DNA of 64,000 nucleotides from Tachypleus tridentatus. Its lineage: Eukaryota > Arthropoda > Merostomata > Xiphosura > Limulidae. Location: assembly GCF_004210375.1 (NCBI RefSeq), contig NC_134834.1:11765857-11829856 (forward strand), written 5' to 3'. Position 1 is the first letter of the stretch. Every line of letters begins with the position of its first letter. The notes under the pieces are model-generated. The model did no database searches. It was given only the letters and a program-made list of their open reading frames with translations, and was not told the DNA's origin. The position numbers and the translations under genes were made by a program. Below are positions 33,701 through 48,700 of this stretch, one piece after another.

Positions 33701-36700
33701 AAAATTTTTAAACATGTGATAAACATTTCTACAATTTTTTAAAAGTTCATATGAGTTATTATAATAACAGTTCATATAAGTAATCTAATATATATTGGAC
33801 ATAAATTTTATACCTTCTTCACAGAATTATGCTGTTCTCTTCTGGTAGATTTCTGGTGCGTTGGATGAGATGAGCCACTTTCTAAGTGTAATTAAATGAA
33901 GTAGAGTGTTCTTATCACATATACACAGATAAAGTCAAAACGTGTGTGTTTATTTACATCCTAACTCCTCAAAGTCTACTCAGCCAATCTCTCTCAAAAT
34001 ATGTATGTAAACACGTAAATTGGAAATTATGGGAAATTCCTAACAGGGTCAAACTTGAACTTAACTCTATTTCTATTTTGTAAATCCTCTTGGTGTAGTC
34101 ACCCCCAGCCTATTGAGTCAATCTCAAACAATCTTGGGAAGTTGACACTTTAGACCATGTTGAATATTCTGAGGAGATCCAAAGTGTGAAAGTTGTTGGA
34201 TTGTTTCTTGTACAACCATGTTTTTCTCAGAGTCACTGAGATGTAGGGTGTTCAAGGGTGGGATCACCTCAGAATCTTTATTTGTTGGTAGATGGAAAAC
34301 AAACTACAAATATTGTTTGTGAAGAAGTTTTATTATAACTTTAAAATAAAGTTTATGATCAGGTTATTACTTTGTAACACATGATTGTTGTTAAACTCAC
34401 ACTGTTTTAAGTTGATGGATATTTTAGTCCGTCACATATCAATCATCAAGAACGAGTTCAGATTCTATAATTAACCATTACAATGGAAGTTTCGAAATAT
34501 ACCAAAACATACAGAGAACTACATTTCAATAATGTTTCTTTATGAAAAGTGAGAGAAACAAACAGAAGTGTGGGTAATACTTCAGACTTTCTTTCCATAT
34601 ATGAGGAGTGGGGGTATCTTCCTCAAAAACTCAATTGCCCCCTCCCAGATTTTTCAAATTTATGGATTTTATTTCCAGACAATAACACTTCATGTGAAAA
34701 GCTGGGTATCCTTAAAAACATACAGTTTTACACAAACTTTTATAAAATTTGTTTATAAACACAATATTATATTTATAAACATACTGACTTTGTTTTATAA
34801 ACACAATATCATATTTATAAACATACTGTCTTTGTTTTATAAACACAATATCATATTTATAAACATACTGTCTTTGTTTTATAAACACAATATCATATTT
34901 ATGAACATACTGTCTTTGTTTTATAAACACAATATCATATTTATAAACATACTGTCTTTGTTTTATAAACACAATATCATATTTATAAACATACTGTCTT
35001 TGTTTTATAAACACAATATCATATTTATAAACATACTGTCTTTGTTTTATAAACACAATATCATATTTATAAACACACTGTCTTTGTTTTATAAACACAA
35101 TATCATATTTATAAACACACTGTCTTTGTTTTATAAACACAATATTATATTTATAAACATACTGTCTTTGTTTATAAACACAATATCATATTTATAAACA
35201 TACTGTCTTTGTTTTATAAACACAATATCATATTTATAAACATACTGTCTTTGTTTTATAAACACAATATCATATTTATAAACATACTGTCTTTGTTTTA
35301 TAAACACAATATCATATTTATAAACATACTGTCTTTGTTTTATAAACACAATATCATATTTATAAACACACTGTCTTTGTTTTATAAACACAATATCATA
35401 TTTATAAACACACTGTCTTTGTTTTATAAACACAATATTATATTTATAAACATACTGTCTTTGTTTATAAACACAATATCATATTTATAAACATACTGTC
35501 TTTGTTTTATAAACACAATATAATATTTATAAACATACTGTCTTTGTTTTATAAACACAATATCATATTTATAAACATACTGTCTTTGACATTCACTTCC
35601 CACCAAACACAAAATAAACTTCTGTCTCTTCCCACCACTTAGGTTCCCTGAACACGTCCCTCCCCACCACTTAGGTTCCCTGAACACGTCCCTTCCCACC
35701 ACTTAGGTTCCTGAACACGTCCCTTCCCACCACTTAGGTTCCTGAACAAGTCCCTTCCCACCACTTGGGTTCCTGAACCGTCCCTTCCCACCACTTAGGT
35801 TCCCTGAACACGTCCCTCCCCACCACTTAGGTTCCCTGAACACGTCCCTCCCCACCACTTAGGTTCCTGAACACGTCCCTTCCCACCACTTAGGTTCCCT
35901 GAACACGTCCCTTCCCACCACTTGGGTTCCTGAACACGTCCCTTCCCACCACTTGGGTTCCCTGAACACGTCCCTTCCCACCACTTGGGTTCCCTGAACA
36001 CGTCCCTTCCCACCACTTGGGTTCCTGAACCGTCCCTTCCCACCACTTGGGTTCCTGAACACGTCCCTTCCCACCACTTAGGTTCCTGAACACGTCCCTC
36101 CCACCACTTAGGTTCCCTGAACACGTCCCTCCCCACCACTTAGGTTCCCTGAACACGTCCCTTCCCACCACTTAGGTTCCCTGAACACGTCTCTTCCCAC
36201 CACTTAGGTTCCCTGAACACGTCCCTTCCCACCACTTAGGTTCCCTGAACACATTCTTCTAACTCTTGCTAATTCAGTCTGCATTCTCACCAAGTCAGAT
36301 ATAAAAAGTTAACTGGTGTTTTTCCTATCTACCAGTAGTTACAGAAATGTATAAGGTTTGGGTGTTAAGATGTTCTACAGATACACCACTTCCACAGTCT
36401 AAAAAAAACAAACTTCAATCTAGTCAAATTAGTCTGTAGACACAGAAGTACTCTTGTTACCGCACATGCAACAAAATGATCGAATTTTGTCATGTTATTA
36501 TTTAAACATGAAGGTTTGTAACTACATGCACATTCCTTAAACCAGTAACTTACCATGTTTGTCTTTGAAAAATCCTACAAACACAACAAAATTGTTTGTT
36601 TGAGGAATGGTGTATTCAAGTCCAAAATGTTTCTTCAAGAATGTTAAAAATTTGTGGGACGGTCGATCAATAGCAAGCTCTTCTGGAGAAACTTCTTCAA

Positions 36701-45700: not shown

Positions 45701-48700
45701 TACCAGAAACTTCTTCAATCTGTAACCAACAACATGAGTTACTACCAGAAACTTCTTCAATCTGTAACCAACAACATGAGTTACTACCAGAAACTTCTTC
45801 AATCTGTAACCAACAACATGAGTTACTACCAGAAACTTCTTCAATCTGTAACCAACAACATGAGTTACTACCAGAAACTTCTTCAATCTGTAACCAACAA
45901 CATGAGTTACTACCAGAAACTTCTTCAATCTGTAACCAACAACATGAGTTACTACCAGAAACTTCTTCAATCTGTAACCAACAACATGAGTTACTACCAG
46001 AAACTTCTTCAATCTGTAACCAACAACATGAGTTACTACCAGAAACTTCTTCAATCTGTAACCAACAACATGAGTTACTACCAGAAACTTCTTCAATCTG
46101 TAACCAACAACATGAGTTACTACCAGAAACTTCTTCAATCTGTAACCAACAACATGAGTTACTACCAGAAACTTCTTCAATCTGTAACCAACAACATGAG
46201 TTACTACCAGAAACTTCTTCAATCTGTAACCAACAACATGAGTTACTACCAGAAACTTCTTCAATCTGTAACCAACAACATGAGTTACTACCAGAAACTT
46301 CTTCAATCTGTAACCAACAACATGAGTTACTACCAGAAACTTCTTCAATCTGTAACCAACAACATGAGTTACTACCAGAAACTTCTTCAATCTGTACCAG
46401 AAACCAACAACATGAGTTTACCAGAAACTGTAACCAACAACATGAGTTACTACCAGAAACTTCTTCAATCTGTAACAACAACATGAGTTACTACCAGAAA
46501 CTTCTTCAATCTGTAACCAACAACATGAGTTACTACCAGAAACTTCTTCAATCTGTAACCAACAACATGAGTTACTACCAGAAACTTCTTCAATCTGTAA
46601 CCAACAACATGAGTTACTACCAGAAACTTCTTCAATCTGTAACCAACAACATGAGTTACTACCAGAAACTTCTTCAATCTGTAACCAACAACATGAGTTA
46701 CTACCAGAAACTTCTTCAATCTGTAACCAACAACATGAGTTACTACCAGAAACTTCTTCAATCTGTAACCAACAACATGAGTTACTACCAGAAACTTCTT
46801 CAATCTGTAACCAACAACATGAGTTACTACCAGAAACTTCTTCAATCTGTAACCAACAACATGAGTTACTACCAGAAACTTCTTCAATCTGTAACCAACA
46901 ACATGAGTTACTACCAGAAACTTCTTCAATCTGTAACCAACAACATGAGTTACTACCAGAAACTTCTTCAATCTGTAACCAACAACATGAGTTACTACCA
47001 GAAACTTCTTCAATCTGTAACCAACAACATGAGTTACTACCAGAAACTTCTTCAATCTGTAACCAACAACATGAGTTACTACCAGAAACTTCTTCAATCT
47101 GTAACCAACAACATGAGTTACTACCAGAAACTTCTTCAATCTGTAACCAACAACATGAGTTACTACCAGAAACTTCTTCAATCTGTAACCAACAACATGA
47201 GTTACTACCAGAAACTTCTTCAATCTGTAACCAACAACATGAGTTACTACCAGAAACTTCTTCAATCTGTAACCAACAACATGAGTTACTACCAGAAACT
47301 TCTTCAATCTGTAACCAACAACATGAGTTACTACCAGAAACTTCTTCAATCTGTAACCAACAACATGAGTTACTACCAGAAACTTCTTCAATCTGTAACC
47401 AACAACATGAGTTACTACCAGAAACTTCTTCAATCTGTAACCAACAACATGAGTTACTACCAGAAACTTCTTCAATCTGTAACCAACAACATGAGTTACT
47501 ACCAGAAACTTCTTCAATCTGTAACCAACAACATGAGTTACTACCAGAAACTTCTTCAATCTGTAACCAACAACATGAGTTACTACCAGAAACTTCTTCA
47601 ATCTGTAACCAACAACATGAGTTACTACCAGAAACTTCTTCAATCTGTAACCAACAACATGAGTTACTACCAGAAACTTCTTCAATCTGTAACCAACAAC
47701 ATGAGTTACTACCAGGAACATTTCAGTTCTACTTTTAACACACGTGTAGGTAACTTGAACATAAGAAACAAGTATGGCTTTGAGAAACATGTAAAACAAA
47801 AATAGAAGTTGTAGTAAGTCAGATCAGGCACTTATAATACAAAATAGTAGATCATAAGTACATAAATACTGGTTTTGAAGAAGCAATATATACTTTTAAA
47901 ATAATTATGTGTTATTACCTGTAACCATAGTGAAGACCTCTGTTACCACTACTACATTAATTCAAACACTTAACAAGAATGTGTAGCAGCACCTCATGAA
48001 GAATTGTCACTGAAATTGTAACATTAATTACTTTCAAAATACAACTATTAATTTACTGAAAATAACAGAAGAAACTTTATAAAGATATTTTTCCAACTAA
48101 TTAAGCAGCAATTAGGACAAAACAGAAAATCAATTTTTTAAAGGATTTCTGAAATAACAAAATAGAGCCTAAAAATGTAAACCTCATAAAAGATAACATA
48201 CTTGTACCTATTTTTCTAAGCTCTGTTAAAACACCACAATGTTTTCATGTCTTCCATGTGTAAGAAAAGTAGTGGCATATAAAGAAATTTGATGTGTAAC
48301 AACATAGTTAATAAAAAACAAGAATTACATTTGAACTTTCCATGTGTTCAGTTGGGTTCTGAGTTATTGGTTTACATGTGGTAACAACTGCGGGTTATCA
48401 AGAGAAGTATTGTACTCACTTTTAGCATTGTTTTAAAAACCTGAAGACCATAGCCTTGCCTCTGACACGAATCATGGATGTAGAAATCTAGAACACAGAG
48501 CGGCCATAGCTCCTGAATGTCTCCGTGCTCATCAATAATGAAAAGTTTCTTTCTTCCAATCTTCAGGAAACCAATGATAGCACCACAACTACTAGAAAGC
48601 CAGTGAATACATACAAAAATCAGTTGAATAACAAATATTTTCATGGTTTTAGAGACCATTACAACAAAATGGCCCTTGAATAATAAAATAATTACCAATA

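Follow-up and report, generated by a model that had tools for sequence, protein, structure and literature searches.

A mirage-type minisatellite across the intron 4/exon 5 boundary of the ATAT1 gene in the horseshoe crab Tachypleus tridentatus

RESULTS

The ATAT1 gene and its exons

The analysed window is a stretch of 64,000 nucleotides, C10:11765857-11829856, of the Tachypleus tridentatus assembly (2.17 Gb, 205 contigs). It harbors a gene on the minus strand, whose located coding segments span from 51354 down to 30643. The protein encoded by the joined exons corresponds to the NCBI T. tridentatus ATAT1-like isoform X1 (P0001), with a reported identity of 100%. It contains the Mec-17 acetyltransferase domain (Pfam PF05301, E 2.3e-63) and matches the ATAT1 chains in the PDB (E 1e-53). 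By its domain and its orthology, the predicted product identifies the host gene as ATAT1, alpha-tubulin acetyltransferase. The protein match and the minus-strand mapping thus support the gene identity and the orientation proposed in the preliminary description of this DNA.

Mapping of the coding segments placed the coding part of exon 1 at 51179..51354, exon 2 at 49579..49636, exon 3 at 49209..49300 and exon 4 at 48420..48591. Exon 5 lies at 36554..36701, with the protein P0001 among the evidence, and the last coding segment at 30643..30765. Intron 4 (36702..48419) is 11,718 nt long, and 11,018 nt of these belong to a tandem array.

Structure of the tandem array

TRF detected an array with a 42-bp period at 36687-47719 (11.03 kb), and wrap-around alignment resolved it into 265 head-to-tail units, 206 of which are perfect. 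Its intronic part, 36702-47719, makes up 94% of intron 4. On the minus strand, the unit reads GGTAGTAACTCATGTTGTTGGTTACAG followed by ATTGAAGAAGTTTCT, which are 27 nt of the intron end and 15 nt of the exon start, respectively. No gap separates the array from exon 5. The functional junction, between 36701 and 36702, lies inside the last unit, the exonic part of which is the first 15 nt of exon 5 (36687-36701), and the array therewith adjoins the authentic boundary. Beyond this point the two diverge, as the exon continues with CCAGAAG and the array with GGTAGTA. The preliminary description had estimated about 262 copies at 36687..47716; the array is real, with a slightly larger count and extent. 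Our alignment of the unit to the exon 5 boundary agrees with the composition given there, in which about 27 nt come from intron 4 and 15 nt from exon 5, and the gapless run and the subsequent divergence were both seen.

The functional acceptor, within the last 27 nt of intron 4 (36702..36728), includes TAGTAAC, a T-rich tract and AG, and shows no difference from the array consensus. The same three elements and a purine-rich GAAGAAG are present in each intact copy. We take TAGTAAC to be branch-point-like and GAAGAAG to be splicing-enhancer-like. With the functional site counted, 214 sites match the functional acceptor exactly over -20..+3, so that a purely local acceptor score would be equal for all of them, and 208 sites match over all 42 nt (-27..+15). 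The AG is retained in 256 of the 265 units; since the substitutions are few and piled at three columns, this retention allows no inference on selection for or against the decoy AGs. Damaged units occur in clusters within the array, and four 48-bp variant units form one block (41758..41949). The non-repeated part of the intron (47720..48419) ends on the array side with GTTCCT, which resembles the GTTTCT that closes the unit.

A second assembly copy of the locus

The assembly holds a second copy of ATAT1 about 80 kb away on C10, at about 112765-130871 when the numbering of the window is continued beyond its end (window frame). A 500-N gap, at 105990-106489 in the window frame (C10:11871846 on), lies between the two copies. 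With masked repeats set aside, ten longer alignment blocks between the copies (21,960 aligned positions) contain 142 mismatches (0.65%) and 142 gap positions, and the stretch on either side has duplicates of 98-99% identity elsewhere on C10. The second copy is probably either a second haplotype that was not purged or the product of a recent duplication.

The array of the second copy consists of 203 units, 144 of which are perfect, and has the same edges as that of the first. The unit number therefore differs (265 vs 203) between two assembly copies that may be alleles or duplicates. The intron-side edge of the second array is formed by two 48-bp variant units, which in the first copy occur as the block of four inside the array. 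Unequal exchange would explain both the placement of the 48-bp units and the difference in unit number. In the second copy, the frame of exon 5 (118651-118798 in the window frame) is disrupted by two insertions of one base each, which would reflect errors in the consensus or damage to this copy.

Confinement to intron 4 and the repeat background

Exact matches to a diagnostic 30-mer of the array number 356 across the 2.17-Gb assembly; 212 fall within this array and 144 within that of the second copy, and none lies elsewhere. TRF intervals with a period of at least 15 and a span of at least 60 numbered 114 in the surrounding 204 kb. Twenty-two of them have at least 13 nt in common with the ATAT1 coding segments tested (those other than exons 4 and 6), and all 22 are pieces of this array or its second assembly copy, indicating that the match between array and exon is not due to chance.

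The region is rich in tandem repeats. TRF arrays occupy 104,868 of the 204,000 bases around ATAT1, 21,658 of the 64,000 bases of the window, and 2,119 of 20,000 bases in ten arbitrarily placed 2-kb samples, four of which contain any. An origin of the array at the splice junction as a by-product of a minisatellite-rich genome is plausible. This view rests on the general array density, and a survey of ten exons speaks against it: TRF found no exon-edge array at the Helicase_C exon loci surveyed (10 of 95 matches, 10.2 kb), a sample too small for a rate. Two short repeats, both within one of these loci, lay away from the exon edge.

Two more tandem arrays, at 34748-35588 (42 bp x 20) and 35624-36252 (32 bp x 20), are located in intron 5, and neither shares 13 nt with any coding segment tested. 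A 35-bp array of about 177 copies (24088-30276) comes to within about 370 bp of the final ATAT1 coding segment, and the contig carrying the second copy starts within its counterpart. Beyond the 5' side of ATAT1, an array with units of about 42 bp (ATCAACTAGTGG...) is found at 67969-77208 and 148637-183878 in the window frame. It extends over 9.2 kb next to the first copy and is much longer next to the second, and related arrays continue to at least 199818. The window also contains transposase-like Pfam fragments, namely HTH_48 (Mos1), the hAT dimerisation region twice and DDE_1, and a C17orf113-type zinc finger (22475-22870 (+), 10789-11298 (+), 54290-55132 (+), 61342-61743 (-) and 9283-9702 (+)).

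Use of the splice sites

The protein model P0001 joins MLK to IEEVSPEEL, that is, at the last acceptor. The second T. tridentatus model, P0004 ('uncharacterized protein LOC143228749 isoform X4'), joins at the same acceptor and equals P0001 minus 88 residues of exons 3-4. These residues fall inside the acetyltransferase domain match, and P0004 thus lacks much of the domain. Where the two assembly copies differ in exon 9, both models follow the window copy, not the second copy. From these predicted proteins, we infer that splicing mainly uses the last acceptor. The donor of exon 5 (ATG/GTAAGT) matches 7 of the 9 consensus positions; within the unit, donor-like sites reach 5 of 9 at best.

The last-acceptor models and the better donor of exon 5 together make exon definition the preferred reading. 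The exon-proximal acceptor would be mainly used because only there does a good donor close an exon of ordinary length, and the upstream copies would be mostly silent decoys. The proposal that the spliceosome meets some 262 equivalent acceptors before the correct one is upheld as to local sequence, with 214 locally identical sites. This support does not extend to equal treatment by the spliceosome; both models use the last acceptor, and the exon 5 donor fits the consensus better than any donor-like site of the unit. The lack of exons 3-4 in P0004 hints, against the preferred reading, that splicing may not be fully regular.

Upstream of exon 5, its reading frame stays open over 135 codons in the first copy and 1,033 codons in the second, so that some mis-splicing would remain in frame. 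The unit length of 42 nt (3 x 14) would yield a 14-aa repeat if translated. A query of 34 such repeats plus the protein start of exon 5 was scored against the 7,988 candidates that had the most words in common with it, all of them about 290-924 aa long, and no 14-aa repeat protein was found among them. The search recovered three proteins, namely ATAT1 of T. tridentatus, ATAT1 of Limulus and one from MMETSP that carries this Pfam domain as well. Their alignments cover 9-11% of the query, a stretch approximately as long as its exon 5 portion.

We also considered whether RNA self-structure hides the decoys, and rejected this possibility. The fold of eight units was no better than that of shuffled-unit repeats (z -0.1; 171 of 400 as low or lower), and for a single unit 212 of 400 shuffles were as low or lower. 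In one exon-side fold, the unpaired probability of the true CAG was 0.24, with five of 16 upstream sites higher and 11 lower.

DISCUSSION

Relation to known boundary-spanning repeats

The preliminary description knew of no satellite made of a gene's own splice acceptor. That claim of novelty does not stand, as the amphioxus 'mirages' (PMC3902484) and the VNTR of human ABCA7 (PMC5954066) are close precedents. Mirages are described as minisatellites that lie across intron-exon boundaries and adjoin the real boundary, with unit numbers differing between haplotypes; they occur in Adh3, the globin genes BflGb6 and BflGb9, and TnC, with a similar case in PGBD5 (PMC3087553, PMC3902484). One BflGb6 haplotype has 6 units and the other 3; the units are 150-160 bp long and 81-100% alike (PMC3087553, PMC3902484).

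The ATAT1 array shows three features of a mirage: its unit spans the boundary, it adjoins the authentic boundary and many of its units carry splice signals. It is a mirage-type minisatellite, a kind already known. As described for BflGb6, the ATAT1 units hold the 3' end of the intron and the 5' part of the exon. Unlike BflGb6, the ATAT1 array has about 265 units of only 42 bp, 206 of them perfect, and resides in an arthropod. The Adh3 mirage of amphioxus is reportedly unstable in somatic tissue.

In human ABCA7, a VNTR in intron 18 has a 25-bp unit that includes the donor of exon 18, comprises about 12 to 427 units and reaches about 10.7 kb, and its length was measured to affect splicing (PMC5954066). 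Like the ATAT1 array, it begins at the splice site that belongs to the exon and can have hundreds of units; unlike the acceptor-side ATAT1 array, it lies on the donor side, downstream of the exon. Whereas the length effect in ABCA7 was measured according to that account, the ATAT1 array is known here from sequence and protein models. A further relative is the minisatellite of human IFI6 (6-16), the repeat units of which are reported to act as splice sites of the gene, with several donors (cited in PMC4526556; also in the reference lists of PMC2572611 and PMC3618361). These units carry splice sites as those of ATAT1 do, but the sites are donors, and downstream units are reportedly used. In a limited search of openly licensed PMC papers, we recognised no acceptor-side array of hundreds of units and no boundary array in a chelicerate. 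Within the literature searched, what is new is thus the size, the uniformity and the host group: hundreds of near-identical units on the acceptor side, in a chelicerate.

Origin of the array and alternative explanations

The array was probably seeded by the ATAT1 junction itself, through tandem duplication followed by slippage or unequal exchange. At the start of exon 5, Limulus has VEAVSPEEL and Tachypleus IEEVSPEEL; three of the five unit-encoded residues are identical in this protein comparison, and a further one is I/V. Given this similarity, the exonic portion of the unit seems to be ancestral, with the array as the derived state. Seeding at the intron 4/exon 5 junction, as the preliminary description proposed, thus gains support from the match between unit and junction, the confinement of the 30-mer and the Limulus protein. 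In the scenario we favor, a 42-bp segment across the acceptor would have been duplicated in tandem, and GTTYCT, common to the end of the non-repeated intron (GTTCCT) and the unit end (GTTTCT), is possibly the microhomology behind the first duplication. Slippage and unequal exchange within the intron would then have raised the number to hundreds of near-identical copies, probably as an almost neutral side effect of a genome rich in minisatellites. Taken as a whole, a mirage-type minisatellite that arose from its own junction, with the exon-proximal acceptor mainly used, mostly silent decoys upstream and near-neutrality, is in our judgment the likely explanation.

The converse, that a pre-existing satellite entered the intron and overwrote the start of exon 5, so that the exon copies the satellite, is highly improbable. 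The identity of the functional acceptor with the array consensus is in its favor, as homogenisation may extend into the acceptor; the agreement with Limulus at three of the first five residues of exon 5, with I/V at one more, and the restriction of the 30-mer to the two copies of intron 4 argue against it. It is scarcely more probable that the length or structure of the array is largely an artefact of assembly. The locus occurs twice around the 500-N gap with further 98-99% duplicates in its flanks on C10, damaged units are clustered, and the second exon 5 carries the two one-base insertions, all of which indicate that the assembly is imperfect here. Nevertheless, the window is free of any N, and an array with the same edges is present in two contigs, one on each side of the gap.

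An effect of array length on splicing deserves somewhat more weight but remains unlikely. Decoys or the 11-kb repeat itself might cause skipping of exons 3-4 or in-frame insertions of 14 aa, with array length tuning the amount of active ATAT1. Consistent with this, P0004 is P0001 without 88 residues of the acetyltransferase domain (exons 3-4), the unit of 42 nt is 3 x 14 nt long, the upstream frame is open for 135 or 1,033 codons, and the donor-side VNTR of ABCA7 is reported to alter splicing with its length (PMC5954066). On the other hand, both T. tridentatus models use the last acceptor, no 14-aa repeat protein occurred among the scored candidates of about 290-924 aa, and the amphioxus mirages are described as leaving regular splicing undisturbed (PMC3087553). 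We accordingly doubt that the array is an evolved, length-variable splicing rheostat, in which more than 200 identical complete acceptors compete and allele length sets exon 3-4 skipping or 14-aa gains, and hence ATAT1 activity.

Implications

Intron 4 of ATAT1 offers a natural experiment on how 3' splice sites are chosen, as its 214 acceptors identical over -20..+3 differ mainly in position and downstream sequence. If only the last acceptor is used, local sequence alone is insufficient for acceptor choice, and a rule of 'first transcribed, first used' does not hold here. Boundary-spanning minisatellites would extend from amphioxus to an arthropod, and the ATAT1 array would show how large they may become in a gene that still looks intact.
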